Source: a virus
DNA length: 64,000 nt
Virus record (IMG/VR): IMGVR_UViG_3300019751_000003
Location: 19,395 to 83,394 of that record
Strand: one strand, 5' to 3'
Part shown: positions 2,146 to 62,458 of the stretch, piece after piece
How positions within the stretch are numbered: position 1 is the first letter of the stretch
Layout of the letters: each line of letters starts with the position of its first letter
The notes under the pieces: generated by a model
What the model was told of the DNA's origin: nothing
Databases searched by the model: none
Seen by the model: only the letters and a program-made list of their open reading frames with translations
Made by a program: the position numbers and the translations under genes

Positions 2146-3720
2146 TTATAACAACCAAGTTAAATCTTGGTCATTACCATGCTGGTCTTTCTGTTTCCAA
2201 GGGTCTATTCCAAGGTTTCTATTGTTATAAGCACCTGGTTGATTCCTTTTTATGTGGGTTAATGTAGTTCTTGTTAAGTCCATACCTTGTTGTCTTAACT
2301 TCAATGCCGTATCTCTAACCCAAAGACCTGTTGAGAAAGATATTACTAAGTCATCATTATAACCTCGTTGAGCTTCTGCTCTACTACCATTCCATATGAA
2401 AACAAACAACTCATCGATTAATCTTTTTGACCTAATCAATGGTGTTCTTTCTCTCATATAAGTATCTAATTTAGATATAACCAATGGACGAGTTCTACTT
2501 GTCATTGAGAACCCAGGAACCATATCGTCTTTTCTTTTTAAATCAAAACCTTTTCTAAGATGGATATCTTCATCGACATAACCTAAATCTCTGTATGAAT
2601 AATATAGGTTTTGGTAGTTTCTGTCTATAACTTCTTGAATTACTGCCCAACCAATGTTTGCGTTTTCAATTACAAGTAATGCGTTGTTCCAATCAGTTGC
2701 AACCGATGTTAAAAATGCACCATATTGTTTTGTTTCAATCTTACCTTTGTATTCAGCAACTTGTTCCACAGTTTCGACATCAAAGACATGAAACGCAGAA
2801 TAGTCAGTAGAATCCCCACGAGCAACATCAGCCACAACAACATAATCACGAGAATAGTTAGGGTAATCCCATAACCAATAATTACCATCAAAACCTCTTT
2901 TTTCAATAGGGTCTTTAACATGCGTCTCTTCATACCATTTTAATGTTGAACCTTCTACTACTGTATAACCAGAACTGATGAAATCACAATCACATTCTTG
3001 TGCTGCTCCTTTTTCACCAAGTAACTTTGTTTGTTGTTCTCTCCATGCTTCATCTCTTTCTGGATGAACACTCCAATGTAATTCTATCGGATTCCATTGT
3101 TCACCTGCTTGTCCTTGTAACCATATTTTGTGAAAAAAGTTACCGACACCATTTGGTGTAGATAATACGATTGCCCCACCACCAGTTGATAGTGTTGATT
3201 GTGCAGATGTCCAAATTTCTTCTACATTATCGATAAACGCAGCTTCATCAATTACCAATAAAGATAATGCTTCAGAACGACCTGCGTCACCTGCAGCAGA
3301 TGTTGCTTTTATCTGAGAACCATTTCTAAGTCTTAATGATAACTTGTTATCTTCCTCAGTATTACCTCTTAACCAAGATGGTAAGTTCTGATGCATGAAT
3401 CTAACTTTAGTAACTAAGTTTTTTGCAACCTCTTGTTTAGTTGCAATTACTAATACATTTTTATCTTCATGAAATAACATAAGCCAGAGAGAATATCCGG
3501 CTGATAGTGTTGATATACCTAATTGTCGTGATTTAAGAATTACATTAAATCGATTGTCGGAAACTGCCGACATTAAGTCTTCTTGGAAGTCGTATAAATT
3601 AAAAAGAATTTTACCACGAGATGGGTGTTGAATATAACAATACTTTCTAAAAAAATATACGGGGTCTTTAGCACATTTTAAGTACTCTTCCTTTATGATT
3701 TGTTTGATTGGCTTTTGCAT
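2146..3720 (-). CDS. 17: Terminase large subunit (T4 gp17-like ATPase/nuclease)
   Basis: This is the DNA-packaging motor that pumps and cuts genomic DNA at the portal. The 524-residue protein shows the T4-type ATPase: a Walker A variant SRQLGIST at residues 64-71, Walker B LLVIDEA at 154-160, and coupling motif STPNG at 187-191. The C-terminal RNase-H-like nuclease has D298 (ADVARGDSTDYSA), E352 (LVIENANIG) and D456-D457 (GYNDDLV), matching the three carboxylates of gp17. The length is somewhat below T4 gp17 (about 610 residues). It sits between the portal gene and a small membrane-protein gene, with 4 bases to the latter. No small terminase is recognisable in the window. Confidence 0.95.
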   Translation of the reverse strand: MQKPIKQIIKEEYLKCAKDPVYFFRKYCYIQHPSRGKILFNLYDFQEDLMSAVSDNRFNVILKSRQLGISTLSAGYSLWLMLFHEDKNVLVIATKQEVAKNLVTKVRFMHQNLPSWLRGNTEEDNKLSLRLRNGSQIKATSAAGDAGRSEALSLLVIDEAAFIDNVEEIWTSAQSTLSTGGGAIVLSTPNGVGNFFHKIWLQGQAGEQWNPIELHWSVHPERDEAWREQQTKLLGEKGAAQECDCDFISSGYTVVEGSTLKWYEETHVKDPIEKRGFDGNYWLWDYPNYSRDYVVVADVARGDSTDYSAFHVFDVETVEQVAEYKGKIETKQYGAFLTSVATDWNNALLVIENANIGWAVIQEVIDRNYQNLYYSYRDLGYVDEDIHLRKGFDLKRKDDMVPGFSMTSRTRPLVISKLDTYMRERTPLIRSKRLIDELFVFIWNGSRAEAQRGYNDDLVISFSTGLWVRDTALKLRQQGMDLTRTTLTHIKRNQPGAYNNRNLGIDPWKQKDQHGNDQDLTWLL

Positions 3721-45987: not shown

Positions 45988-46890
45988 TTAGTGTCTACTA
46001 AAATTGGAAAGATAATTTAGAACAGTCAGTTCTTTTGCCTTAGCTTCAACCACAATATCAAGGTCATGACCATAAGTTTTAATTTCAGAGTACAAATAAT
46101 CTGAATGTGCCTGTGCTCGTGCAGTCTCATCCTCAAGTGTTTTTGACTCAGAGTAATGAACAACTGGTTTGACATCACCCCAAGTGGACATCGCCAACTC
46201 CAATGCCTCTTGTTCTGATAACCCACCTGTATTGAATGTATGGTGGTGATAATCAAAGACAATTGGAATACCAATCCTTTCGTGTATATACATTAAGTCC
46301 TTGACAGAATACATACTTGCCTTGTCATCATTCTCAACAGTAAGTCGTGTCTGAACAGATTCAGGCAACTTCTCAAAGTTTTTACAGAACCTATCCATAG
46401 CGGACATCTTATCACCATACACACCATTACAATGAATATTGATTTTGTTGTAAGGAGTGCGAGACAATCCCATCAAGTCAAATATCTCACCATGAATGGT
46501 TAAGTCTCTAAGAGTATTGTTTACTACTCGTTCATTTGGTGATACAAGAACATTGAATGGACCAGGATGAGATGTGATTCGTTGACCATACTTTTCTGCC
46601 AGATTACCTGCTCCCTTGAGGAGTGTAGATATCTTACGATAATCAGGCATATCTGATAACTTGAACTCACTAGCCCAAGGAACTAAATCAGAGGTCATAC
46701 GGAACAGATTGAATCCGTTCTGATGATTCCACTTGATAATCTCAATAAGGTCTCTTGTGTTTTGTAATGCGAGGTCTGATGACCTTGTGATTCCTTCCTT
46801 AAGGAATGTTCGTTTAATCATACTACGATTTGTAGTAATCTTGTTTTTGCGTAGTGTCATATTGATACACGCGTAACCTAAGTTTGTCAT
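45988..46890 (-). CDS. uvsE: UV damage endonuclease (UvdE/UvsE)
   Basis: The 300-residue protein matches the UVDE family over its length (typical 280-300). The TIM barrel supplies metal ligands: H108 in RITSHPGPF, H153 in NIHCNGVYGDK, E186 in LTVENDD, D213-H216 in VFDYHHHTFN and E282 in VVEAKAK. The enzyme nicks DNA 5' to pyrimidine dimers and starts alternative excision repair, useful for a surface-water phage. The family start NLGYACIN is present. It has its own host-type promoter at 46914-46943. Confidence 0.93.
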   Translation of the reverse strand: MTNLGYACINMTLRKNKITTNRSMIKRTFLKEGITRSSDLALQNTRDLIEIIKWNHQNGFNLFRMTSDLVPWASEFKLSDMPDYRKISTLLKGAGNLAEKYGQRITSHPGPFNVLVSPNERVVNNTLRDLTIHGEIFDLMGLSRTPYNKINIHCNGVYGDKMSAMDRFCKNFEKLPESVQTRLTVENDDKASMYSVKDLMYIHERIGIPIVFDYHHHTFNTGGLSEQEALELAMSTWGDVKPVVHYSESKTLEDETARAQAHSDYLYSEIKTYGHDLDIVVEAKAKELTVLNYLSNFSRH

Positions 46891-46944: not shown

Positions 46945-47391
46945 TTAAAAGTTACCATCTGCAACTTGAAAACAAGTAATACCATTTGCTCTCCACATAT
47001 CGACAACTTTGTTTCTATCATCGAAGGTACATAGAACATTGTCTTTACCAATATCGTTTAACCAATCTTGTTTTAAGATATCATCGGGAGTAAAATCCTT
47101 CAAAGGTCTCATAAACAATCTGCTCCAAGGAACTTTGTGTTTGTTTAACCACGACTTGGTAGTGTGAATAGTACCTTTACTTCTACCACTAAAGATAATA
47201 ATCTTGTGGTCAGTAGACGCCAACATCTGTGCCATCTTTATAACAGGTATATTAGGTTTATCTAAATTTATATTTTTTGGGTCAAAGAATTTATCCCAAT
47301 CCATTTTTCCATTTGGTTTAGTAGATATCTTTCTTCTATCATCGATAAGAGCGAGAGTACCATCTAAATCAAAAATTACTATGTTCTTCAT
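46945..47391 (-). CDS. HAD-family phosphatase (polynucleotide-kinase 3'-phosphatase-like)
   Basis: The 148-residue protein has the HAD motifs: motif I FDLDGTLA (D8, D10), motif II IIFSGRS, and motif IV CTFDDRNKVVDMW. The arrangement, with WDKFFDPKNI after motif I and SWLNKHKVPWSRLFMRP after motif II, resembles the phosphatase domain of T4 PseT (Pnkp), without its kinase domain. It could remove 3' phosphates from damaged DNA or RNA, fitting the adjacent uvsE. The gene follows an intrinsic terminator, so it probably begins a new transcript; a weak promoter (TATCTTTA box) lies at 47413-47442. Confidence 0.8.
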   Translation of the reverse strand: MKNIVIFDLDGTLALIDDRRKISTKPNGKMDWDKFFDPKNINLDKPNIPVIKMAQMLASTDHKIIIFSGRSKGTIHTTKSWLNKHKVPWSRLFMRPLKDFTPDDILKQDWLNDIGKDNVLCTFDDRNKVVDMWRANGITCFQVADGNF

Positions 47392-47412
47392 ACTATTAAA
47401 CTTTACATAGTA

Positions 47413-47442
47413 AAGATAATAAAAAAAGGGGACTCTGGCAAG
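47413..47442 (-). promoter_or_regulatory. Weak promoter candidate of the HAD gene
   Basis: TATCTTTA on the minus strand (47418-47413 core) matches other -7 boxes here. The -33 position reads CTTGC, not TTTGG, and lies inside the terminator hairpin. Confidence 0.3.
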
Positions 47443-47447
47443 CCCCC
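47421..47447 (-). terminator. Rho-independent terminator after the Hsp20 operon
   Basis: On the minus strand, GGGGGCT-TGCCAG-AGTCCCC forms a seven-base-pair GC-rich stem (one G-U pair) with a 6-base loop, followed by seven Ts. It lies 16 bases downstream of the 67-residue gene. Confidence 0.85.
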
Positions 47448-47449
47448 TA

Positions 47450-47466
47450 TGTTAAGAAATTGTTAA
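47450..47466 (-). repeat. TTAACA-N5-TTAACA direct repeat (copy 1)
   Basis: The minus strand reads TTAACAATTTCTTAACA, starting within the stop codon of the 67-residue gene and running up to the terminator stem. The same 17-base element occurs at 52858, 55075 and 55294. Confidence 0.7.
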
Positions 47467-47666
47467 ATCTCATCGTACTCTACATCTGTAACTTCTTGGA
47501 GAAAATAGAAGTAACCATCACTTCCTCTGAGTACCATATCGCAGTTTAGATATTCTTTCCATGTTTCCACAATCGGTCTTCTTTCTTCATGGATTTTTCG
47601 AATGATTAAATATAGCGTATCATTATGTTGTAACTTCTTATACCTAAACCACGAATATGCTGACAT
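47463..47666 (-). CDS. Small protein of unknown function
   Basis: The 67-residue protein (MSAYSWFRYKKLQ...) is rich in Tyr, Arg and Glu, with a central LIIRKIHEERRPIVETWKEY helix and a beta-like end (YFYFLQEVTDVEYDEI). No signal or membrane segment is visible. It lies 5 bases after the Hsp20 stop and precedes the terminator, so it is the last gene of that transcript. The family is not recognised. Confidence 0.55.
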   Translation of the reverse strand: MSAYSWFRYKKLQHNDTLYLIIRKIHEERRPIVETWKEYLNCDMVLRGSDGYFYFLQEVTDVEYDEI

Positions 47667-47671
47667 CTAAA

Positions 47672-48022
47672 CTACTTAACTTTTACTGTAATATTCTTTG
47701 CTTTCCTATCTTCATACTTTGGAATCTCAATATTAAGAAGACCATCTTTACAAATGGCTGATGTAGAACCTAAGTCGAAGGACTCGTGAATCTTATATTT
47801 TCTTTCGAGTTTACGATTATCCTTTTCAGCTTTGATTAAAAGATATCGGTCTTCAGTTTTCACATCAACATCCTTGTTTGATAGTCCAGGAACTTCCAAC
47901 TCAATTTTCAAAACATCATCCTTAATCCAAGATGTTGGTGTTGAAATACTTCTTGCCTCGGTGTCCCAATTTAACATTGAATCCATAACAGTATCAAAAT
48001 TGCTATAAAATAAATTTGTCAT
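47672..48022 (-). CDS. Small heat-shock protein (Hsp20/alpha-crystallin)
   Basis: The 116-residue protein is an ATP-independent holdase of the Hsp20 family. It shows the alpha-crystallin domain: DDVLKIELEVPGLSNKDVDV, LLIKAEKD, the ERKYKIHESFDLG strand and the ending CKDGLLNIEIPK. The classical C-terminal I-x-I anchor is replaced by ITVKVK. Hsp20 is common in T4-like marine phages and probably protects phage scaffolding proteins. The 135-base region upstream has repeats and a palindrome, described separately, rather than a standard promoter. Confidence 0.93.
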   Translation of the reverse strand: MTNLFYSNFDTVMDSMLNWDTEARSISTPTSWIKDDVLKIELEVPGLSNKDVDVKTEDRYLLIKAEKDNRKLERKYKIHESFDLGSTSAICKDGLLNIEIPKYEDRKAKNITVKVK

Positions 48023-48088
48023 AATAACCTTTTTTTAATTAAACATTAATTTCTTTGATTATTATAGTACCAATTGTGTACCATTCCA

Positions 48089-48130
48089 TTTTGTAAGGGT
48101 ATAGTATGACATTATGTCAGTTTTGTAAGG
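48089..48130. repeat. Repeats and palindrome upstream of hsp20
   Basis: Two TTTTGTAAGG copies (48089-48099 with an extra G, and 48121-48130) flank a 13-base palindrome TGACATTATGTCA (48107-48119). The region between 48023 and 48157 has no gene and looks regulatory. Confidence 0.6.
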
Positions 48131-48157
48131 TTATATACTGACACTACTGACACCTTG

Positions 48158-48544
48158 TCAATTTAAGGATATAGCTGGTCCTTGTTTTATGACACGATAC
48201 TTTCTTGTGTCCTGGAAACTCTCTTCGAGTTCTAACATTAAACCATCCATTTGAAACATTCGGATAGTTTCATTCATCAACTTTTCATTATCACAAGTTA
48301 TCCAAAGAGAATCTAAATCAAGTATAACACTAACCTTTGTAGTTTTTGGTTTGTCTTCGGTCTCTGGAGTGAATTCGAACATAGGTTCATCGAAATCCCC
48401 ATCTTCGAAATCATCGTCCTCAAGTTCACCAAAAAGGTAGTCATGCATATAATAGACTTTCGTCATATCATCTAAACTCATGAAGTAATTAAATTCTGGC
48501 TCGTCCCATTCCATGATACTCCTTTTATTATAAGTATGACTCAT
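48158..48544 (-). CDS. Acidic small protein of unknown function
   Basis: The 128-residue protein is acidic, with a central run LEDDDFEDGDFDEPMFEF. A C-terminal domain with KVSVILDLDSLWITCDNE and KLMNETIRMFQMDGLMLELEE follows, a beta-alpha layout. The start at 48544 is preferred because its ATGA overlaps the upstream stop by 4 bases; a Met five codons upstream would give a longer overlap. An acidic protein of this kind could be a DNA mimic, but nothing else supports that. It is the gene before the hsp20 regulatory region. Confidence 0.55.
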   Translation of the reverse strand: MSHTYNKRSIMEWDEPEFNYFMSLDDMTKVYYMHDYLFGELEDDDFEDGDFDEPMFEFTPETEDKPKTTKVSVILDLDSLWITCDNEKLMNETIRMFQMDGLMLELEESFQDTRKYRVIKQGPAISLN

Positions 48545-48966
48545 GGTTTGTCTTTCCACAATTTATTTAGATATTCTAAACCTTCTTTATTGATAATCGT
48601 ATTATCTGCTTTTATGAAATCAATGTAGATATCAATTATGGTTTGTACAAACTCGCTGGTAAACCTATCCTTCATCTGGTTAAGTTTTGCCCCCATATTA
48701 ACAACATAGTTAGTATCAGGCGCCTGCTCTGAGTCTATAAGAGAATGAATCTTATTTTTAGCGATTGTGTAGTAGGGTTCTTTTTTAGCGACAACAACAT
48801 CTCTAACCGATGCGACATAGGTTTCAAGGTCAGACCTCTCACCAAGCGTATCATCTGCCAACATATCAAATATGTCGGGTGACGCGAAGTTCAAGTAATA
48901 CTTGTCGTGCCTACGAGACCTCATAATCCAGTCGTCATAATCTTCAGTTAAATGCCTATCATTCAC
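48541..48966 (-). CDS. Unknown helical protein
   Basis: The 141-residue protein begins with an acidic segment (RHLTEDYDDWIMRSRRHDKYY) and continues helical (LETYVASVRDVVVAKKEPYY, then TSEFVQTIIDIYIDFIK). There are no recognised motifs. It sits in the small early-gene array, 12 bases from its upstream neighbour and overlapping the next gene by 4 bases. Confidence 0.55.
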   Translation of the reverse strand: MNDRHLTEDYDDWIMRSRRHDKYYLNFASPDIFDMLADDTLGERSDLETYVASVRDVVVAKKEPYYTIAKNKIHSLIDSEQAPDTNYVVNMGAKLNQMKDRFTSEFVQTIIDIYIDFIKADNTIINKEGLEYLNKLWKDKP

Positions 48967-48978
48967 TAATAAAAGATT

Positions 48979-49275
48979 TTATAATCCTAATCTATATTTT
49001 TTCTTCGACAACTCAACTGCCTCAAAACAAGTCATGGCTAATTTATTTAACTCGGCCATTGTTACTTCAAATTCCTTATTGTCTATCTGAATGTAACCTA
49101 CCTTAGTAGCTCCATGTGGGTGATTTGAGAAATCAAATTGTTCGTGTACACGAAAATCTAAAGTGTTGTAGATATTTCCGTACTTCTTTTCGTTTCGTTC
49201 CTGTCTTTCTTGAGGAACTCCAAATGAGTGGTTTACATTACCATGCCTCACTTTGGTCTTATTATACTTTTTCAT
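48979..49275 (-). CDS. Unknown small protein
   Basis: The 98-residue protein has a basic His/Asn-rich start (KTKVRHGNVNHSFGVPQERQ) and a central FRVHEQFDFSNHPHGATKVGYI segment. The end is a helix with MAELNKLAMTCFEAVELSKK. No family is recognised. It is followed by a 12-base gap to the next gene, and a 55-base gap without features separates it from the upstream gene. Confidence 0.5.
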   Translation of the reverse strand: MKKYNKTKVRHGNVNHSFGVPQERQERNEKKYGNIYNTLDFRVHEQFDFSNHPHGATKVGYIQIDNKEFEVTMAELNKLAMTCFEAVELSKKKYRLGL

Positions 49276-49330
49276 AAGTAACTAATTGTTGGTTATATAC
49301 CAATAAATAGTTTTCTCAATACTAATAAAG

Positions 49331-49633
49331 TTAATTTTTCTTACGATTTCTTCGAGAAATTCTATCAAACTTTTTTTCATCGAATTTCATGTCTTGTTTA
49401 AGTGGGTGTGTTCTGTTAAAATGTTGTTCTATCTGACAAGACCTACTTGCCCAATACCATGCATCGTACACCTTCGATTGTGGTGGGATAAATAACTCCT
49501 CACCCACCACAGTACCAATACCACTCGATATGTAAAACATACCACTTGAATTCATTTGAACCTTTGCGTTAGGATACTTCTTCCTAACTTTTCTTTGGAA
49601 TGACTTAAACTTCCTCGTCTGAACTTTGTCCAT
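49331..49633 (-). CDS. Small basic protein of unknown function
   Basis: The 100-residue strongly basic protein has an N-terminal KFKSFQRKVRKKYPNAKVQ helix-strand. A middle with GMFYISSGIGTVVGEELFIP and YDAWYWASRSC follows, then a basic end RISRRNRKKN. The charge suggests nucleic-acid contact. It overlaps the stop of the upstream gene by 29 bases. Confidence 0.5.
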   Translation of the reverse strand: MDKVQTRKFKSFQRKVRKKYPNAKVQMNSSGMFYISSGIGTVVGEELFIPPQSKVYDAWYWASRSCQIEQHFNRTHPLKQDMKFDEKKFDRISRRNRKKN

Positions 49634-49844
49634 TTACTTTGTTTTTTAAATTCTTAGTAAGACCTTTATGAATATGGCAGGTTGACAATTCCTTATTTAC
49701 AGAACATCTGTCAACCTTCTTACCATTTTCAAGGAGTACTTCATATACCAAACCTCGTTTTAGTTTAGTTCGTTTCGTCACCATTCCAACTCTAAAGTGG
49801 CCGTTTACTTTTAATATAACACTATCTCCTTTTTCGAATACCAT
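49605..49844 (-). CDS. Small beta-barrel-like protein
   Basis: The 79-residue protein starts FEKGDSVILKVNGHFRVGMV and continues VYEVLLENGKKVD, a strand pattern like small SH3/KOW or Tudor-type barrels. A Cys/His cluster (CSVNKELSTCHIH) in the second half might bind a metal. It overlaps the neighbouring gene upstream by one base (TAATG). The function is unknown. Confidence 0.5.
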   Translation of the reverse strand: MVFEKGDSVILKVNGHFRVGMVTKRTKLKRGLVYEVLLENGKKVDRCSVNKELSTCHIHKGLTKNLKNKVNGQSSDEEV

Positions 49845-50044
49845 TACTTTATAACCTTAATTATTTTTGTTTCAATTACAGAACCAACTTCGAATTCAAT
49901 TCCTGAACCTTCGAAATCCTTTGTAACTTTCACCTCTGCGTCTGTAACAGACACTGCGTTAACAACATATTGTTCAGTTAACTTTTTCACTTTACCTTTG
50001 TCATCTGTGTGATGTACTTTTACTTTTGCGATGTAATACTTCAT
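49844..50044 (-). CDS. DUF4494-like small protein
   Basis: The 66-residue protein reads MKYYIAKVKVHHTDDKGKVK, then EQYVVNAVSVTDAEVKV, ending FEVGSVIETKIIKVIK. This matches my recollection of the DUF4494 family, which occurs mostly in Bacteroidota and their mobile elements. If correct, it supports the host assignment. The biochemical function is not known. Confidence 0.55.
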   Translation of the reverse strand: MKYYIAKVKVHHTDDKGKVKKLTEQYVVNAVSVTDAEVKVTKDFEGSGIEFEVGSVIETKIIKVIK

Positions 50045-50053
50045 AATTTAATT

Positions 50054-50272
50054 TTAATTGTTTAACATATTATCTAATTCTTGTTCATCAACAAGTTTAT
50101 ATTCCCCATTTGGATTTGCCGAATGGGCGTCTTCATATATAGTGTGGTAGAAACTCACGAAGTGTCCTTCACCGATATCTACCTTTCCTGCAGGTATCAC
50201 TACATACCCATAGTTTTCCCCCTGGTCTTGCCAATACTTAGCATCCCTTGGGAATTCATTTAATTTTGCCAT
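50054..50272 (-). CDS. Unknown small protein
   Basis: The 72-residue acidic protein contains YWQDQGENYGYVVIPAGKVD and FVSFYHTIYEDAHSANPNGE segments and an acidic helical end. No family is recognised. It overlaps the end of the upstream gene by 17 bases and is followed by a 9-base gap. Confidence 0.5.
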   Translation of the reverse strand: MAKLNEFPRDAKYWQDQGENYGYVVIPAGKVDIGEGHFVSFYHTIYEDAHSANPNGEYKLVDEQELDNMLNN

Positions 50273-50603
50273 TTTTCATTTTATTAATTAATGTTTCTAA
50301 ATCTCTACCTTTATCGGTAGTCTTGTATGCCAGTTTGCCATCTTCATTGACTACCATACTAACCAATCCCTTATCTACTAAGTTGGACAATGCCATATCA
50401 GTTTCGTATCTTTGATATAATTGGTATGCGTCCACAATAACTTCAGAAAGAAAATCTTGTGACTGCGATGTTTTTAAACCTTGTTTGATATAGTCTGCGA
50501 ATGTATCCCAATCGTTTATATCAAAATTACCTTCCATAAGTTCTGAGACTATTGATGAGGTCATGTCTTTAAGTTCTGATTCACTCCATCTCATCTTGTT
50601 CAT
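50256..50603 (-). CDS. Unknown helical protein with winged-helix-like end
   Basis: The 115-residue protein begins with helices (SESELKDMTSSIVSELMEG, then DTFADYIKQGLKTSQSQDFL). The C-terminal part, LSNLVDKGLVSMVVNEDGKL followed by YKTTDKG, resembles the last helix and wing of a winged-helix DNA-binding domain. It could be a transcriptional regulator, though this is weak. The next Met (50594) is an alternative start; both overlap the upstream gene. Confidence 0.5.
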   Translation of the reverse strand: MNKMRWSESELKDMTSSIVSELMEGNFDINDWDTFADYIKQGLKTSQSQDFLSEVIVDAYQLYQRYETDMALSNLVDKGLVSMVVNEDGKLAYKTTDKGRDLETLINKMKNGKIK

Positions 50604-50769
50604 CTTTAAATTCTACTAAACTATCTAAATAATCCATTGAGTCAGAACTGCCTATTAGACAATCCACCTTCGGTCCGTTGTATCTATTCAACACCGACTC
50701 GGCGCCCCAATCTTCAACCATCTTTTTAAGTTCTTGTATGGTTGGTAAATGTACTTTATTAAATCCCAT
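50581..50769 (-). CDS. Small acidic protein of unknown function
   Basis: The 62-residue product MGFNKVHLPTIQELKKMVED... has a central WGAESVLNRYNGPKVDCLIG and an acidic end (FKDEQDEME). I chose the start at 50769 because an upstream Met at 50874 would extend 105 bases into the preceding gene in another frame, whereas this start overlaps it by only 11 bases. The function is unknown. Confidence 0.5.
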   Translation of the reverse strand: MGFNKVHLPTIQELKKMVEDWGAESVLNRYNGPKVDCLIGSSDSMDYLDSLVEFKDEQDEME

Positions 50770-51040
50770 CTTTATTTTTTTTATCCCAAAAATGTTTCTC
50801 GTTTTCTTTTCCCATCTTCTTGATTGAATCCCATTTCTTTTTATCAATAGTGTCACCTCTAAGTGATGCGTCAAGGAAACTTATCTTTTTTAATTCATGT
50901 GAATTTAAAGGTCGACTTTTTGTTTTTAGATACGCTGATTTTGAATCAAGATATTCTAAGAACCAATCGAAATTATGTTGAGCCATCTTGTCAAGTTCTT
51001 TATCCGTAAGAGGATTTTCAGGGTCGTACTTTGTAGTCAT
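50759..51040 (-). CDS. Unknown small charged protein
   Basis: The 93-residue protein starts TTKYDPENPLTDKELDKMAQ and continues FDWFLEYLDSKSAYLKTKS, with a Lys-rich C terminus (EKHFWDKKNKDGI). It has its own host-type promoter at 51048-51077 and so heads the small early-gene array running to 47463. No family is recognised. Confidence 0.55.
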   Translation of the reverse strand: MTTKYDPENPLTDKELDKMAQHNFDWFLEYLDSKSAYLKTKSRPLNSHELKKISFLDASLRGDTIDKKKWDSIKKMGKENEKHFWDKKNKDGI

Positions 51041-51047
51041 AACTTTA

Positions 51048-51077
51048 AATATACAAAAATTTTACTTATTTACCAAA
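51048..51077 (-). promoter_or_regulatory. Putative host-type promoter of the small early-gene array
   Basis: TTTGG (51077-51073) and TATATT (51053-51048) with the 24-base spacing lie 8 bases before the start at 51040, so the mRNA would be nearly leaderless. The -33 box is within the end of the upstream gene. Confidence 0.55.
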
Positions 51078-51508
51078 CTTTGTCTGTTCAATTTTTCGAT
51101 GAGGTAAAACTCATAGACTTGTTCTGCGTCCATCAATCTACTCTTCATAACCTTATCCCAAAGACAAAATCCAAATTCTTTTTCTAATTCCTTTTTAAGA
51201 AGGTCTAATGTTTTTATTTCATCACGATGACCTTCCTCATCTAATTTATTTGCTCGGACATTTTTCATATAAGACTTTTGTCTAGCCTCATTTACATATC
51301 CCCAATAGTCATCTGAATTTGGATTCTTATAGTAACCTTCCATTACCTCATCGTAAATGGCAGAGGCCAGCTTTCTTGCTGCCTCTGCCTCTGAGTAATA
51401 ATAAGAGTAATCGAAATCACCATTGTTAATTTTTTCTATCAAGGGTTGTTTTACTGATAGTTTTTTCTTCCTACCATTTGTCCACCATCTAAATTTGTTA
51501 TATCCCAT
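51062..51508 (-). CDS. Unknown protein downstream of the MoxR-type ATPase
   Basis: The 148-residue protein begins with a Trp/Arg-rich stretch (GYNKFRWWTNGRKKKLSVKQ). A helical region follows (YSEAEAARKLASAIYDEVME and GHRDEIKTLDLLKKELEKEF). The end includes CLWDKVMKSRLMDAEQVYEF. It is separated from the ATPase gene by 3 bases, so it may be a third component of the ATPase/VWA unit, but there is no direct evidence. Confidence 0.55.
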   Translation of the reverse strand: MGYNKFRWWTNGRKKKLSVKQPLIEKINNGDFDYSYYYSEAEAARKLASAIYDEVMEGYYKNPNSDDYWGYVNEARQKSYMKNVRANKLDEEGHRDEIKTLDLLKKELEKEFGFCLWDKVMKSRLMDAEQVYEFYLIEKLNRQSLVNK

Positions 51509-51511
51509 ATC

Positions 51512-52774
51512 TTAGTAAGGAGCTTCTACTTCATCAGTATTAAACAAATCTTCATTCTCTGGAACCTCACCCAAAAACTTTTGGATGAATTGTTTCATAT
51601 AAACTCTTTCAGACTGAGCCCCACCACTTTGGTCAAACATTGGGTAGATAGTAATCTCAGCAGCTTCACCTAATTCGAAACCATCATAGAGTAGAGAACC
51701 AATCTCAACTGCCGTTCTCGTAGACAAGGCGTTACTTAACTTAGGAGTTTCTGACATCAAGTCAGCTCTTGTCATCGAAGTAATCTCAGCAACATTAGAC
51801 AAAATGTTTTCATCAACTGAAGGATACATCATTTGAAGAAGTTGAGTTTCCTCTTCGTGAGTTAGAGTGTCCATTTCGATAACAGTAAATCTGTCTAGCA
51901 TCGCTCTGTCAAGAGCTCTTGTAGCGGTGTACTCATTACCGATGTTAGCCGATGCGATGAAGGAAACACCCTCAGCGACTTTGACAACAGGAGCGTCAGC
52001 CGCCTCATCCAATCTCAAGTATCTTTGACCTTGGTCAAGAACCGTCATTAGAATGTTGTGAGCCTCAGGGTGAGCTCTCGTCAACTCATCAAGAATGATA
52101 ACAGTATTTGGTGTTTGAATCGCCTTAACAAAAGGTGAAGTGTTGAACACAGTACCTTGTTTGGAATCGAACTGAGTGTTACCAATCAGAGTTGTTCTTG
52201 GGTCTTGAGTAGAACCAAGGTTGATGATGAAGGTGTTGAAACCTTCGAGTGAATTAGCCGCTGCTTTAGCCGCCATAGTTTTACCACAACCGGCAGGGCC
52301 AGTCATCATAATGTTTTTACCTCTAAGAATGTTTCTTACCAAATACTTCCACTTTAGGGACTGCATGAATAACATCTTAGGTTTTAGACCTTCTGACTTT
52401 TCGTGAATGAAACTAAGAACATCAGAAGTCATCGCTTCAGTAGCGACAGAAACAGGTTCAGGTTTAGAATACTCAAGAGCGACAAGACCACCATTAGGAG
52501 CGGTGAAGTTACCAACTGGCTCAAGGTTTTCTTCTACCTTAGATGCCGGAACTCTTGTAAAGTCAATCTTACCATCAGTTAGTCTACCACTAACTCTAAC
52601 TTTGAACCCATACTTGTCGGGTCTTTTGAAGGATTGTCTTACCCTTTTGTAAAGGTTAGTACCTTCTTCATTGAACTCAGGAATCAAGAACTGCTTTCCT
52701 GCCGAATCTTCAAATAGAAACTTTCCATCTACTTGAACAATCTTTCCGAATACTGATTTTTGTGCTTTCATCAT
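51512..52774 (-). CDS. cobS: MoxR/CobS-type AAA+ ATPase
   Basis: The 420-residue AAA+ ATPase has Walker A GPAGCGKT (159-166), Walker B VIILDE (225-230), a sensor region SFIASANIGNEY (about 271-282) and an arginine-finger region ALDRAMLDRF. The first 110 residues form a separate beta-rich domain (VRVSGRLTDGKIDFTRV). Such ATPases are annotated as CobS in T4-like marine phages and work with VWA proteins as MoxR-type remodelling chaperones or metal-insertion machines. The VWA/CobT-like partner is the gene immediately upstream. It has its own host-type promoter. Confidence 0.88.
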   Translation of the reverse strand: MMKAQKSVFGKIVQVDGKFLFEDSAGKQFLIPEFNEEGTNLYKRVRQSFKRPDKYGFKVRVSGRLTDGKIDFTRVPASKVEENLEPVGNFTAPNGGLVALEYSKPEPVSVATEAMTSDVLSFIHEKSEGLKPKMLFMQSLKWKYLVRNILRGKNIMMTGPAGCGKTMAAKAAANSLEGFNTFIINLGSTQDPRTTLIGNTQFDSKQGTVFNTSPFVKAIQTPNTVIILDELTRAHPEAHNILMTVLDQGQRYLRLDEAADAPVVKVAEGVSFIASANIGNEYTATRALDRAMLDRFTVIEMDTLTHEEETQLLQMMYPSVDENILSNVAEITSMTRADLMSETPKLSNALSTRTAVEIGSLLYDGFELGEAAEITIYPMFDQSGGAQSERVYMKQFIQKFLGEVPENEDLFNTDEVEAPY

Positions 52775-52820
52775 TTTTACTTTTTAATTATTAATTACTC
52801 TTATTACTTATTACTCTACT

Positions 52821-52850
52821 AAAGTACGACATTAATTTGACAATTCCAAA
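52821..52850 (-). promoter_or_regulatory. Putative host-type promoter of the AAA+ ATPase gene
   Basis: TTTGG (52850-52846) and TACTTT (52826-52821) are separated by the standard 24 bases. A TTAACA-N5-TTAACA element lies immediately upstream. Confidence 0.6.
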
Positions 52851-52857
52851 TTTCTAA

Positions 52858-52874
52858 TGTTAAGAAATTGTTAA
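52858..52874 (-). repeat. TTAACA-N5-TTAACA direct repeat (copy 2)
   Basis: The minus strand reads TTAACAATTTCTTAACA. It includes the stop codon of the VWA gene and lies just upstream of the AAA+ promoter. With flanking bases (52849-52869) it can also form an AATTTCT/AGAAATT hairpin. Confidence 0.75.
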
Positions 52875-55018
52875 ATTTTCACCTCGAACTTTTTATTTAA
52901 TGTTTTGGCTAACTGAGTCATGTTATCAACATTGATGAACTCCGAATCCTTACCATACATTTCCTCAAACTGAGTCTTACTACTTCCATAGTACCCATCA
53001 GAGATAAAGTAAGATAGGACACCAACACCTGCGTTTCTAACTTTCTTAACTTGGTCTGCCGTATGTTTTACTGCGTAGTCACCACCATAACTAATTTCTT
53101 TGTTGTCAAAGCCAGGCCATCCATCTGAGAAATTGATTAGGTAACTTTCCACACCATTTTTTGTATTGGTCAACTCTTTTAGAATCGCTTCAAAACACAA
53201 CCCTTCAGGAGTAGTTCCACTTGGTGAAATATATTTAAACAAGTTTACAATTTTAGAAAACTTATCTTTTCTTGAATCATATGCAATCATCATTAGAGGT
53301 TGACACCCACTTCCACTATTGTAGTAGATACCTCTATAAGAAATCACTACATTCATATTGTCGGTCATCGATGCTGCCTTTGCAATCGCTACGGCTGCCG
53401 TTTGAGTGTTGTACCACTTGTCACCATTCATTGAAGAACTTGCGTCAATCGAGATATGTACTAAACAAGGAGTCGCCGTATTGATATTGATTTGGTCAAA
53501 GATTTGGAAGTTACCGAAACCAATCTCGTGTAACATTCTACCATTTAACTTACCACTCTTCATTCTTGGAGTGTTGTCAATTCTCTCTTCGTTTCTTGTC
53601 TTAAGTTTCTTACCTAAGATAGTTCCAAGCGTAATACCTTTTCTAACTGCCTCATCATTTCTCTCAACTCTCCAAGTACTTAAGTGACCAATCATATTTG
53701 AGTCAATCAATGATTGATTTACATTTCTGATTACATAAGTCTGAACACCTTGAGATTGATTTCTCCAATAACCTTGGTCAAGTCCTTTGCCTGTAACCTC
53801 AGTTTCGATATCAGCTTTATCAAGAACATCAATTTTCTTTTTGTCAGCCTTAGTGATTGTAGTTTTTTTGATATCACCATCTAAGAACTTCTTTTGTTTC
53901 TCGATAGCGTTATCTAACATTTTCTTTTGTTTATCATTCAAAGGTTGGAAGTCACCGCCAGCACCATTCTTATTACCGAGGCCAGTTGGTTGAGGACTGC
54001 CTTCTTCGGTAGAACCACCATCCTTACCATCATCACCCTTAGAGTCTTTACCTTTACCACTTCCGTTACCTTCCATTGGTGAACCATCGGAAGTTGGTTT
54101 GTCATCAGAAGACATCTCAGACTTACCATTAGTATCATTGTCATCACCACCCATTTCTTTTTGAGATGATTTAGATTCATACTCATTGTCTTGTACATTT
54201 TGGTGGATAATCATATAAATCTGACCTGCCACTTCGAGTGCGTCATTTGATGTTCTTAGTCTTGAAATATTTTTAAGGTCAAGAAGATTCCAAATCTGTT
54301 TCAATCCTTTAAGAGCTTTGAGGTCTCTGTTAGCGTTAGTGATGTTAATCAATCTAAACATATAAGAATCCCAAGTCTCGTCTCTATGTTCTGAAGACTT
54401 AAGACCTTTGTCCACTACATTAGAGTGGAAGTACTTGTTATACATTGACTCATAGTACCCTCTATAACCAGGCGCTGATTTGTAAATGTAATTGTCAATT
54501 CGTCTGTCCTCAACATAGTTAAGTAAATCTTTTAACTTACTTACAATGTCTTTTCTTTTTGACCACCATGCGGTAGAATACTCATCACCATCTTCAACCA
54601 TTTGAATATATGATGATAAAGTTTTTACCCAAGGTAACATAGAATTTGGAAACCCTTGAAGACCATTGTTGTCCATCAGAGTTTTTAACATTTCGAAGTC
54701 AGTAAGTTTGATGTGAGAACCTTCGTGAAGTGCTAACCCAACCACAGGGTCAAATTCTTTGTCATTCATTTTAGCTGATATAACAACCGATTTACCATCG
54801 GTGTAACTATCATCACCCCTACCATTAAAGGTAACGGGAATAGGTTGGCCTGTAACGATACTAACGAAGTTACTGATTGACTTTTTGTATGCCATCAACT
54901 TCATTAAGTCATTAGACTTCTTCTCAATTTTGTTAGGTTCATTATCCGTATCCCATATTGACTTGTCAAGCCAGAAGGAAGAATAATTCATGTGGTTTGT
55001 ATTTCGCATAATTCTCAT
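52871..55018 (-). CDS. cobT: VWA-domain protein with HExxH motif (CobT-like partner of the ATPase)
   Basis: The 715-residue protein combines an N-terminal metallopeptidase-like signature (ALHEGSHIKLTDF, H98-E99-x-x-H102) with an Asp/Gly/Ser-rich linker near 285-350. The C-terminal von Willebrand A domain has MIDAS motif IDASSSMNGDKW near 523 and conserved NFSDGWPGFD. This resembles CobT/DUF2201-type proteins, which act with CobS/MoxR ATPases. In the phage the pair may remodel a metal enzyme or a host complex; cobalt chelation is not implied by sequence alone. Its own promoter lies at 55038-55067. Confidence 0.85.
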   Translation of the reverse strand: MRIMRNTNHMNYSSFWLDKSIWDTDNEPNKIEKKSNDLMKLMAYKKSISNFVSIVTGQPIPVTFNGRGDDSYTDGKSVVISAKMNDKEFDPVVGLALHEGSHIKLTDFEMLKTLMDNNGLQGFPNSMLPWVKTLSSYIQMVEDGDEYSTAWWSKRKDIVSKLKDLLNYVEDRRIDNYIYKSAPGYRGYYESMYNKYFHSNVVDKGLKSSEHRDETWDSYMFRLINITNANRDLKALKGLKQIWNLLDLKNISRLRTSNDALEVAGQIYMIIHQNVQDNEYESKSSQKEMGGDDNDTNGKSEMSSDDKPTSDGSPMEGNGSGKGKDSKGDDGKDGGSTEEGSPQPTGLGNKNGAGGDFQPLNDKQKKMLDNAIEKQKKFLDGDIKKTTITKADKKKIDVLDKADIETEVTGKGLDQGYWRNQSQGVQTYVIRNVNQSLIDSNMIGHLSTWRVERNDEAVRKGITLGTILGKKLKTRNEERIDNTPRMKSGKLNGRMLHEIGFGNFQIFDQININTATPCLVHISIDASSSMNGDKWYNTQTAAVAIAKAASMTDNMNVVISYRGIYYNSGSGCQPLMMIAYDSRKDKFSKIVNLFKYISPSGTTPEGLCFEAILKELTNTKNGVESYLINFSDGWPGFDNKEISYGGDYAVKHTADQVKKVRNAGVGVLSYFISDGYYGSSKTQFEEMYGKDSEFINVDNMTQLAKTLNKKFEVKI

Positions 55019-55037
55019 TTTTTAATCTTACAGTATA

Positions 55038-55067
55038 AAGATAAGACATTTTTGTCTAATTGCCAAA
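55038..55067 (-). promoter_or_regulatory. Putative host-type promoter of the VWA gene
   Basis: TTTGG (55067-55063) and TATCTT (55043-55038) with 24-base spacing lie 20 bases before the start at 55018. Confidence 0.6.
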
Positions 55068-55074
55068 TTTCTAA

Positions 55075-55091
55075 TGTTAAGAAATTGTTAA
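55075..55091 (-). repeat. TTAACA-N5-TTAACA direct repeat (copy 3)
   Basis: The minus strand reads TTAACAATTTCTTAACA, covering the stop codon of the 46-residue gene and abutting the VWA promoter. It is identical to copies 1 and 2 over 17 bases. Confidence 0.75.
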
Positions 55092-55228
55092 ATTTTGCCT
55101 TTATGTTTTTCTTTACGAGTATAGTGTTTCTTGCTTTTATGAGGCATTGGAACCCTGAGTGAATCTCTCCACTCTTGAAAGGTAAGGGTTACCTTCTCTA
55201 ATTTGATATTTTTATCTGATTTAGCCAT
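55088..55228 (-). CDS. Small basic protein (46 residues)
   Basis: A short frame encodes MAKSDKNIKLEKVTLTFQEW..., continuing RDSLRVPMPHKSKKHYT and ending KHKGKI. It has a host-type promoter with exact spacing at 55257-55286, and its stop sits in the same repeat element as the stop of the VWA gene. Charge and organisation support a real gene. The family is not recognised; the basic end suggests nucleic-acid or ribosome contact. Confidence 0.65.
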   Translation of the reverse strand: MAKSDKNIKLEKVTLTFQEWRDSLRVPMPHKSKKHYTRKEKHKGKI

Positions 55229-55256
55229 AATGCCTTATCTCTTTCTTTACTATGTA

Positions 55257-55286
55257 AAGATAGTGAATTAAGTTGGTATTGCCAAA
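55257..55286 (-). promoter_or_regulatory. Putative host-type promoter of the 46-residue gene
   Basis: TTTGG (55286-55282) and TATCTT (55262-55257) with 24-base spacing lie 29 bases before the start. Confidence 0.6.
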
Positions 55287-55293
55287 CTTTAAA

Positions 55294-55310
55294 TGTTAAA
55301 ATTTTGTTAA
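55294..55310 (-). repeat. TTAACA-N5-TTAACA direct repeat (copy 4, diverged spacer)
   Basis: The minus strand reads TTAACAAAATTTTAACA. The two hexamers and 5-base spacing are kept, although the spacer differs from copies 1-3. It lies just upstream of the promoter of the 46-residue gene. Confidence 0.7.
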
Positions 55311-56727: not shown

Positions 56728-56741
56728 AATAAAATTTATTG

Positions 56742-56813
56742 TAGCCCCTAGGAGAATCGAACTCCTCTTTCCAGGATGAAAACCTGGCGTCCTAACCGAT
56801 AGACGAAGGGGCC
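56742..56813 (-). tRNA. tRNA-Glu (anticodon TTC)
   Basis: A 72-nt cloverleaf. Acceptor GGCCCCT pairs with AGGGGCT (one G-U at 1-72), the anticodon loop is TTTTCAT in a CCAGG/CCTGG stem, and a canonical T arm contains GTTCGATTC. The discriminator is A; no CCA is encoded. Confidence 0.95.
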
Positions 56814-56823
56814 AGTATGTTAG

Positions 56824-56895
56824 AGCGGAAAGGTGGAACTGCCCCACCATCTCCACATTGGTAATGTGGCGAGTTTCTTTTAACTCTTTTCCCGC
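56824..56895 (-). tRNA. tRNA-Gly-like RNA, element A (anticodon-position ACC, aberrant D and T loops)
   Basis: A 72-nt cloverleaf with exact tRNA geometry. Stems: acceptor GCGGGAA/TTTCCGC, D-type arm GAGT/ACTC, anticodon-type stem CCACA/TGTGG with loop TTACCAA, 4-nt variable loop, T-type stem GGTGG/CCACC. The D loop is TAAAAGAA (no GG) and the T loop GGCAGTT (no TTC), so canonical tertiary contacts are missing. G1-C72, C2-G71, T73 and C35-C36 match E. coli glycine identity elements. It pairs with element B, whose stems differ by compensatory changes. Confidence 0.7.
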
Positions 56896-56899
56896 TTAG

Positions 56900-56971
56900 A
56901 GCGGAAGGTTGGAACTGCCCCAACTCCTTTGTACTGGATGTACAACGACTTTCTTTTAAGTCTTCTCCCGC
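56900..56971 (-). tRNA. tRNA-Gly-like RNA, element B (anticodon-position TCC, aberrant D and T loops)
   Basis: A 72-nt cloverleaf superimposable on element A: acceptor GCGGGAG/CTTCCGC, D-type arm GACT/AGTC, anticodon-type stem TTGTA/TACAA with loop CATCCAG (position 33 is A, not T), variable loop AGGA, T-type stem GTTGG/CCAAC. The D loop TAAAAGAA and T loop GGCAGTT are identical to element A. Only 4 nt separate the two. A host-type promoter lies immediately upstream. Confidence 0.7.
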
Positions 56972-56983
56972 GATTGTTTACAC

Positions 56984-57013
56984 AATATACAAAATAAAAT
57001 TGACATGGCCAAA
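56984..57013 (-). promoter_or_regulatory. Putative host-type promoter driving the tRNA-like pair
   Basis: TTTGG (57013-57009) and TATATT (56989-56984) with 24-base spacing end 13 bases before the 5' end of element B. Transcription would start a few bases before it. Confidence 0.65.
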
Positions 57014-57020
57014 TTTTTAG

Positions 57021-57094
57021 TGGAGAATATCGGAGTCGAACCGATGACCTCTTCGGTGCAAGCGAAGCGCTCTAGCCATCTGAGCTAATTCCCC
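57021..57094 (-). tRNA. tRNA-Ala (anticodon TGC)
   Basis: A canonical 74-nt cloverleaf: acceptor GGGGAAT/ATTCTCC, D arm with GCTCAGATGGCTAGAGC, anticodon loop CTTGCAC in a CTTCG/CGAAG stem, T arm containing GGTTCGACTCC, discriminator A. It lies upstream of the promoter for the tRNA-like pair. Confidence 0.95.
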
Positions 57095-60997: not shown

Positions 60998-61574
60998 ATC
61001 CTAAATCTCTTCTAATATCTTTTTTAACAACTTGTAAATACTTCCATCGTTTCTTATCATTCACAAATGGTACAGACCAAAATTGTCTTGTCTTACGCCA
61101 TCTGGAAAGTTTCCATCCGAATACAAATGAGAATACACCTAGCACCAATCTCAACTTGACTGAGTTGAGATATAAGGTTCTAACAGGTAGAGATGGTGCT
61201 CCATGTGTGATGTATGTTCTTACTTTCTTATCCTTGAGGAATGGTTTCGGATATGCATATAGTTTAGTAAAGTTAACAAACTTGTATGCAAATCCTGGAG
61301 TCAATACCTCATCGAAAAAGATTTCCATTCGTGGTGTTAGTCTGAACCACCAAACAGGTGATATAAAATAAATTCTATCAGACCAAGTTACTAAGTCTTG
61401 ATAAGACTTCATTAATTCTTCTCGTGGTCTTTGAAAACTATCTCTATATAAATCAATAATTTCCAATTCCTCTTTATCCTTATGCTTTCTCAGTTCTCGT
61501 TTAAGAGTCTTGAGAATACCATTGTAACAGAATGACTTCTTATCAGGATGTCCTATAACTATTAGATTCTTCAT
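60987..61574 (-). CDS. Flavodoxin-fold NAD(P)H oxidoreductase (NQO-like)
   Basis: The 195-residue protein has the flavodoxin_2 pattern: NLIVIGHPDKKSFCYNGILK (phosphate-binding loop region), ISPVWWFRLTPRMEIFFDEV (FMN/FAD contact motif), and a late THGAPS. Such enzymes reduce quinones or other electrophiles with FMN or FAD. It overlaps the thyA stop (TAATG), so expression is linked. It may serve redox balance or nucleotide metabolism during infection. Confidence 0.82.
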   Translation of the reverse strand: MKNLIVIGHPDKKSFCYNGILKTLKRELRKHKDKEELEIIDLYRDSFQRPREELMKSYQDLVTWSDRIYFISPVWWFRLTPRMEIFFDEVLTPGFAYKFVNFTKLYAYPKPFLKDKKVRTYITHGAPSLPVRTLYLNSVKLRLVLGVFSFVFGWKLSRWRKTRQFWSVPFVNDKKRWKYLQVVKKDIRRDLGYEI

Positions 61575-62458
61575 TAGTTGTTTAAAGGTGCTTTAATTCT
61601 TGGGTGTGACTGATAGTTGATTAATTCATAATCAAACTCCCCATTCATTATATCTACATTAGATACCTTTAGTTCTGGTAAGTCGTAACCAATTCTTGTT
61701 GTTTGTTCTTTTGCTTGTTCAATATGATTATTGTATATGTGTACATCGCCAAGCGAACCAATCAGTTGGCCAGGTTTGTATCCAGTTTCTTCACATAGTA
61801 ATAGTAATAGTGTACCATACGATGCTATGTTGAAAGGTAACCCAAGGAAGACATCAACGCTTCGTTGATTCCATTTAAGTGATAACTTGTTTTCTGAGTC
61901 TACATAACATTGGAATCCATAATGACAGGGAGGTAGTTTCATTAAGGAAAGTTCTGAGACATTCCATGCGTTGACAAGGTGTCGTCTTCCATGTGGGTCT
62001 TCTTTCAATGATTTAATTAAGTTCTTAATTTGGTCATGACCATCCCAATCCTTCCATTGTTTACCATAGATAAATCCAAGGTTACCCCATTGTTTTGAGA
62101 AGTCATCATCCTCTAATATTTTTTGTTCGAATTCTTTGACATCATATTCAGGGTCTTCTAAGTCCCAATGATGTACTCGTTCATATACTTTGTATGCATC
62201 GCCAGTCCAGATGTGACAATTGTTTTGTAACAAGTATCTCAAATCAGTCCTACCTTTTAAGAACCATTTAAGTTCAGTCATCACAGATTTGACTGCCATC
62301 TTCTTGGTGGTTAACAAAGGAAACCCATCACACATACAATGTCTGATTGTGTAATCAAATAAAGATTTAGTTCCGTAGCCAGTTCTGTCGGGCTTATCGT
62401 AACCGATATCTAAAATTTCGTCTATTAGGTCTATGTATTGACTATCTATTCTATTCAT
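61574..62458 (-). CDS. thyA: Thymidylate synthase
   Basis: The 294-residue protein is ThyA, which makes dTMP from dUMP with methylene-tetrahydrofolate. It has the nucleophile C178 in LPPCHYGFQCYV, the R-x-x-D box WNQRSVDVFLGLPFNIASYG, GSLGDVHIYNNHIEQ and the TKKMAVKSVM start region. The length is slightly above the E. coli enzyme (264). A T4-type td intron is not present. Its own host-type promoter lies at 62479-62508. It supports DNA synthesis in an AT-rich phage. Confidence 0.97.
   Translation of the reverse strand: MNRIDSQYIDLIDEILDIGYDKPDRTGYGTKSLFDYTIRHCMCDGFPLLTTKKMAVKSVMTELKWFLKGRTDLRYLLQNNCHIWTGDAYKVYERVHHWDLEDPEYDVKEFEQKILEDDDFSKQWGNLGFIYGKQWKDWDGHDQIKNLIKSLKEDPHGRRHLVNAWNVSELSLMKLPPCHYGFQCYVDSENKLSLKWNQRSVDVFLGLPFNIASYGTLLLLLCEETGYKPGQLIGSLGDVHIYNNHIEQAKEQTTRIGYDLPELKVSNVDIMNGEFDYELINYQSHPRIKAPLNN

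Follow-up and report, generated by a model that had tools for sequence, protein, structure and literature searches.

The window considered here is a stretch of 64,000 nucleotides (nt) of viral DNA, positions 19,395 to 83,394 of the IMG/VR record IMGVR_UViG_3300019751_000003, in which a direct repeat of two hexamers, TTAACA-N5-TTAACA, stands upstream of four genes. This element is almost certainly a conserved, helically phased activator site, and very likely one that belongs to a regulator of the OmpR/PhoB family. Judged from sequence, the activator for this phage would be the PhoB (or PhoP) of its host, a reading to which we give a probability of roughly two in three.

Four boxes and two classes of promoter

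The four copies of the element (boxes 1 to 4), the predicted promoters next to them and the open reading frames (ORFs) behind them are arranged as follows.

47450-47466, minus strand: box 1, TTAACAATTTCTTAACA, including the stop codon of the ORF at 47463-47666
47411-47442, minus strand: promoter 1, CTTGC-N19-TATCTTTA, consensus match, predicted to drive 46945-47391
46945-47391, minus strand: gene behind box 1, with a PNKP-type HAD phosphatase domain (PF25109, domain search)
52858-52874, minus strand: box 2, TTAACAATTTCTTAACA, including the stop codon of the VWA gene
52819-52850, minus strand: promoter 2, TTTGG-N19-TACTTTAG, consensus match
51512-52774, minus strand: gene behind box 2, an AAA+ ATPase (AAA_5, CobS/MoxR-like, domain search)
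55075-55091, minus strand: box 3, TTAACAATTTCTTAACA, including the stop codon of the ORF for a 46-residue protein
55036-55067, minus strand: promoter 3, TTTGG-N19-TATCTTTA, consensus match
52871-55018, minus strand: gene behind box 3, for a 715-residue protein with a C-terminal VWA-like domain (DASSS; VWA match with E 0.0012) and an N-terminal HEGSH motif
55294-55310, minus strand: box 4, TTAACAAAATTTTAACA, from an exact-pattern search
55255-55286, minus strand: promoter 4, TTTGG-N19-TATCTTTA, consensus match
55088-55228, minus strand: ORF behind box 4, for the 46-residue protein, function unassigned

An earlier note on this DNA had placed copies of the repeat at 47450, 52858, 55075 and 55294. 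All four were recovered there in exact form and on the minus strand, against 0.10 expected in the window (mean of 100 dinucleotide shuffles, none of which reached four). The full record of 83,394 bp holds no further exact copy, none on the opposite strand and none of the pattern written backwards; copies are thus not spread through coding sequence. When two mismatches are allowed, the window contains 24 matches where 26 are expected, so that only the exact element goes beyond chance. In three of the copies, the stop codon of the preceding gene had been said to fall within the repeat, which agrees with the ORF ends at 47463, 52871 and 55088; the copy at 55294 has no upstream stop codon within it.

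Downstream of each box, after a gap of exactly 7 nt, comes a -33 box (TTTGG in three cases, CTTGC in one), then N19 and a -7 box, which reads TATCTTTA in three promoters and TACTTTAG in the other. These -33 and -7 boxes are of the Bacteroidota promoter type (TTTG ... TAnnTTTG). It had been claimed that three copies abut promoters, and this holds for 52858, 55075 and 55294, but the count was too low, since a promoter (CTTGC-N19-TATCTTTA) adjoins the copy at 47450 too. Scanning the entire contig with a position weight matrix derived from viral promoters gives ten clear promoters of this kind, each of them on the minus strand; four carry the element and six do not. The latter have the form TTTGG-N19-TATATT and are located at about 2143, 44651, 46943, 51077, 57013 and 62508. 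This split between promoters with and without a box suggests a different timing or control.

A hairpin AATTTCT/AGAAATT had also been proposed for two of the sites. The inverted repeat does exist at 52858 and 55075, but it is not stronger than chance: the fold z values are -0.94 and -0.44, and in 151 viral promoters the arm length of the inverted repeats is 5.43, as compared to 5.46 with shuffled flanks. On these grounds the hairpin was rejected. Next to box 1, an intrinsic-terminator-like hairpin with a T tail is found at 47427-47448 on the minus strand (fold z -3.22), and it uses the same bases as the -33 box of promoter 1.

Conservation, phasing and the genes behind the boxes

Orthologues of the AAA+ gene were gathered by protein alone, with peptide patterns taken from an alignment of element-bearing orthologues and with the element itself unused. 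The 80 loci, minus four that were short of upstream DNA and 21 duplicates, give 55 distinct regions, and the proteins reach down to about 60% amino-acid identity. The element is present in exact form in 33 of these 55 regions and with at most one mismatch in 49, while at the latter threshold the antisense pattern is found in 1/55 and the permuted and reversed patterns in 0/55 each. In regions whose -33 box reads CTTGG, TTAGG or CTTGT instead, the element is usually retained at its position. In three of the regions (L545, L547 and L548), an extra repeat unit can be seen by eye.

The element is also widespread in uncultured viruses. The first part of the IMG/VR collection, scanned for the element followed by N7 and TTTGG, contains at least 120 stretches with at least 180 copies. 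Among the 180 element sites listed, 168 are followed by a correctly spaced -7 box, as against 0/31 sites of a permuted and 0/12 of a reversed control motif; in the whole collection these controls occur in 31 and 12 stretches, respectively, and none of the 43 records picked by them has the element. Up to 29 copies each, mainly on one strand, are present in 23 box-bearing records, which were selected for the element.

The spacing is strongly constrained, as appears from two scans of the first part of the collection with variable gaps, each represented by 80 listed stretches out of at least 120. With 0 to 20 nt allowed between the box and TTTGG, the gap is 7 nt in 71 of 93 distinct listed promoters, 6 or 8 nt in seven and 17-18 nt in 15, and other values do not occur. 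Within the repeat, where 0 to 16 nt were allowed, the gap is 5 nt in 62 of 98 distinct listed promoters, 4 nt in 29 and 14-16 nt in seven, again with no other value; direct repeats with a period of about 11 bp (a gap of 4-5 nt) account for 91 of the 98. The gaps to the -33 box cluster one helical turn apart, and phasing of this sort is required of an activator that contacts RNA polymerase. Arrays of three or more hexamers at a 10-11-bp period occur as well. The flanks of the boxes are A-rich, whereas the composition of the hexamers is uninformative, being fixed by the query.

In other viruses, the proteins encoded downstream of the boxes are mostly small and without an assigned function. From 140 distinct promoters, 18 of which were without a usable or non-redundant downstream ORF, 122 downstream proteins were obtained; the most frequent recognised family among them is AAA_5 (8/122), and no phosphate-uptake family is among the 16 Pfam families found. 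The idea, put forward in the earlier note, that the element coordinates a CobS/CobT-like unit is too narrow, because box 1 is predicted to drive the PNKP-type phosphatase gene and many unrelated small genes stand behind boxes elsewhere in viruses, even though AAA+ is the family most often recognised there. For the VWA protein of the window, the Pfam match (E 0.0012) is under Pfam's curated cut-off; the motifs DASSS/DASGS and HEGSH are common to five aligned VWA-type proteins behind boxes, including this one. The HEGSH motif near its N-terminus looks metallopeptidase-like by eye. The AAA+ and VWA proteins have only distant relatives by tblastn, and a DNA similarity search with the 5-kb region against cultured phages returned nothing.

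Host phosphate genes and the identity of the regulator

The element is best explained as a Pho-box-type site for a response regulator of the OmpR/PhoB family, placed immediately before a Bacteroidota-type promoter that is complete in other respects. Two winged-helix domains of the host PhoB (PhoP in Riemerella) would occupy the two hexamers in head-to-tail order and from the same side of the DNA (about -58 to -42), and the bound protein would touch RNA polymerase at the adjacent -33/-7 promoter. Phosphate shortage in the host would then raise the transcription of the AAA+, VWA, 46-residue and PNKP-type phosphatase genes. The sequences directly show the element, its phasing, its conservation and its presence before host phosphate-uptake genes; which regulator reads it, its binding, the activation and the response to phosphate are what we infer. 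In Bacillus subtilis, which differs in phylum and promoter type, the PhoP box consists of TTAACA-like hexamers in direct repeats, with spacers of about 5 nt.

The same element is present before phosphate-uptake genes in bacteria. In 80 genomes of the same class (Bacteroidia) as the Flavobacteriales genome L160/G024, four gene families were searched for, a stretch of 300 nt before each of the best loci was scanned, and the sense orientation with at most one mismatch was counted. The element precedes 9/28 genes for sodium/phosphate (Na/Pi) cotransporters (5 exact; antisense 0) and 7/22 genes for PstS (1 exact; antisense 1), as compared to 0/30 for SSF control transporters (antisense 0). Na/Pi cotransporters and PstS pooled (16/50) thus differ from SSF (0/30; Fisher p = 1.8e-4) and from their own antisense strand (1/50; p = 3.9e-5). 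Loci with less than 150 nt upstream were left out (2/30 for Na/Pi, 1/23 for PstS), and a separate PstS-like set of seven loci (L270-L276), counted outside the 22, has no box. With a wider stretch and another ORF rule, the Na/Pi value is 10/30 at one mismatch, with 2/30 antisense.

Some of these host boxes stand in the register of the phage. In the phage, 31 nt separate the end of the box from the -7 box. Of 22 placements of host boxes, 14 have a -7-like site (at most one mismatch), and in 9 of these 14 the corresponding distance is 19-20 or 31 nt; some loci are counted more than once. In genome G106, an exact box lies upstream of pstS, and a regulator matching the phage-borne one discussed below is encoded about 2 kb from that gene. 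The whole phage-type promoter is found in 46 cellular stretches, in three of which (L147, L160 and L167) a phosphate transporter follows by eye; for L160 this is supported by a PF02690 match at the same place of the genome (G024:C222). Another group of these promoters, in Prevotella and related bacteria (L131, L143, L149, L152, L158, L159, L161, L165 and L170), belongs to a repeated family of small genes, HU-like by eye, and has the element in phage geometry.

A further parallel is offered by Riemerella anatipestifer. The most conserved nucleotides of its PhoP motif, obtained by DNA affinity purification sequencing, are TTTAACA, and PhoP directly activates moxR (AAA+) and batA (VWA) (PMC9603813). 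The phage resembles this regulon from the Flavobacteriia in having an AAA+ and a VWA type of gene behind boxes 2 and 3, although the regulon as described there is that of a host, with no phage (PMC9603813); the likeness may be coincidental. Upstream of MoxR-type AAA genes in the genomes scanned, there is a hint of the element (4/30; p = 0.056 as compared to SSF; 9/30 at two mismatches, antisense 1).

Phage promoters with Pho boxes of the host are already known from cyanophages, where host PhoB bound some of the boxes described for P-SSM2 pstS and for S-PM2d in gel shifts (PMC10976474). The promoters discussed here would be alike in carrying host PhoB sites, which in this case are predicted. 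However, the cyanophage box, as given in that source, is the cyanobacterial PyTTAAPyPyT/A, whereas the present one is TTAACA-N5-TTAACA, always 7 nt away from the -33 box of a Bacteroidota-type promoter, and precedes AAA+/VWA and phosphatase genes. Among the papers listed by the literature searches made, none deals in its title or abstract with Pho boxes in phages of Bacteroidota.

Several points weigh against host PhoB as the activator. Another OmpR-family member is possible, such motifs being common to the family. In the host genomes, the genes for PHO4/PiT transporters have the element in just 2/30 cases (1 exact; antisense 1; at most one mismatch), and most of the 46 cellular promoter matches precede genes that are not known to be linked to phosphate (HU-like, RecN, TetR and others, by eye). 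The phage terminase matches that of Flavobacterium phage immuto at 57.9%, yet it matches that of a phage recorded on Microcystis at 57.5%. The three nearest distinct records by terminase, which are immuto, Microcystis phage Mel-JY01 and the uncultured LR756508 (160, 190 and 484 kb), have no copy of the element, so that it is not a property of the whole terminase lineage. The cyanophage study warns, in the part cited, that the prediction of Pho boxes in phages is unreliable (PMC10976474), and the DNA-binding domain of Riemerella PhoP alone is reported to have failed to bind (PMC9603813).

Among the alternatives, the one that survives best, unlikely as it is, holds that a different OmpR-family regulator of the host is at work, for example an ArcA-, WalR- or RprY-like one, and that the matches at phosphate genes reflect a shared shape of motif. 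WalR sites are tandem repeats of the TGTTAA type. The many full-promoter matches outside phosphate genes would fit such a regulator, and so would the description of the Riemerella PhoP motif as similar to that of E. coli ArcA (PMC9603813). Nevertheless, the enrichment before Na/Pi cotransporter and PstS genes, with none before SSF genes, speaks against it, and the phage-borne regulator discussed below is closest to PhoB among solved structures.

Rather unlikely, too, is a UP element that is read directly by the C-terminal domains of the RNA polymerase alpha subunit and that makes these promoters strong and constitutive. The position just upstream of the -33 box, the helical phasing and the A-rich flanks would fit such an element. 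In Bacteroides phage B124-14 (L477), two tandem TGTTAAA copies lie upstream of promoters, at 24560 and 38006, in an orientation relative to transcription opposite to that of the window element; strong promoters of Bacteroides phages reportedly depend on a tandem GTTAA motif (Whitaker 2017). The earlier note had spoken of an activator or UP-type site, and the activator part agrees with the phasing, the conservation among orthologues and the absence of the controls. The UP-type part has become less likely, given that phosphate-uptake genes of hosts carry this element too and that it matches the published PhoP motif. Furthermore, arrays of three or more hexamers fit a regulator that binds in tandem, and six promoters of this phage do without the element in their sequence. 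In 11 host genomes that were selected because they hold a full-geometry copy, there are only 1-2 such copies per genome; the exact element being rare in hosts, the idea that it is a general UP element of theirs was rejected for this exact form.

The third alternative, a phage-encoded activator in this phage too, with a private middle-promoter system, is very unlikely. Like the box promoters of this T4-like phage, the middle promoters of T4 form a class of their own that is marked by an activator box, but the T4 MotA box replaces the -35 region, while each of the four copies here is followed after 7 nt by a -33 box and occupies a more upstream position. The coexistence of promoters with and without a box as two classes in this phage would suit such a system, and three other records encode PhoB-like winged-helix proteins that lack a receiver. 

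The phage-borne proteins also count in favour of the host PhoB reading. The OmpR/PhoB winged-helix domain (PF00486) was found in two of 24 box-bearing records searched, this phage included (E-values of 5.6e-21 for L308 and 4.9e-21 for L307), and the protein of the third record (L310) came from a protein search, its 43% identity to L308 being the sole link. None has room for a receiver domain, with 127 residues in L308, an ORF of 185 residues or shorter from an internal ATG in L307, and a frame of 134 residues in L310. The best PDB match of the 127-residue protein is the DNA-binding domain of E. coli PhoB (E 4.9e-18), and its recognition helix, VGDRTIDVHIRKIR, differs in one residue of 14 from VGDRTIDVHIRKLR in the host regulators L393-L395; its AlphaFold model was poor (predicted local distance difference test, pLDDT, 42) and was not used. 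The record that encodes this protein (L309, IMGVR_UViG_3300023184_000864) has 14 element promoters in 15 kb, and one of these boxes stands upstream of the receiver-less PhoB-like gene itself. The L310 record, a contig of 310 kb, has six copies of the element, none of them in the 20 kb around the regulator gene. Against a phage activator in the present case, the 83-kb record has no PF00486 candidate, and neither have 22 of the 24 box-bearing records, though many of these are fragments. Receiver-less phage proteins could free the same promoters from the phosphate status of the host, but that they work alone is doubtful, because the isolated DNA-binding domain of Riemerella PhoP failed to bind. 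In the phage collection, tblastn with the winged-helix protein retrieves 66 records, the majority of which bear the label of Listeria or Staphylococcus phages or of phages without a name.

Finally, the stop codons in three copies, the inverted repeat spanning two of them and the AT-richness of the genome might suggest chance or a hairpin or terminator remnant at gene ends, which is hardly credible in view of four copies for 0.10 expected, a hairpin no better than shuffles and an element kept in 49/55 orthologous upstream regions.

If PhoB of the host is indeed the activator, the phosphate status of the host would steer gene expression in many uncultured Bacteroidota phages, beyond cyanophages, and the course of infection would be tuned to host phosphate. 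The motif and its register could be used to find PhoB-controlled genes in Bacteroidota and their phages, and a small phage protein would be a candidate for taking over these sites. More tentatively, it may be that many uncultured Bacteroidota phages, T4-like ones included, use the host PhoB switch to activate a whole class of promoters, in the way that MotA serves T4, that some have a receiver-less PhoB of their own by which they escape host control, and that the AAA+/VWA pair copies the PhoP-controlled MoxR/Bat arrangement of the host.

Host and other genes of the phage

On the basis of promoter type and terminase, the host of this uncultured phage is probably flavobacterial. The terminase and the other genes recognised have the following window positions.

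158-2071: portal gene
2146-3720: terminase gene, the nearest cultured relative being the terminase of Flavobacterium phage immuto (57.9%), annotated beside a T4-like Gp20
45988-46890: UvdE endonuclease gene
47672-48022: Hsp20 gene
56741-57094: tRNA-Glu and tRNA-Ala genes
61574-62458: thymidylate synthase gene

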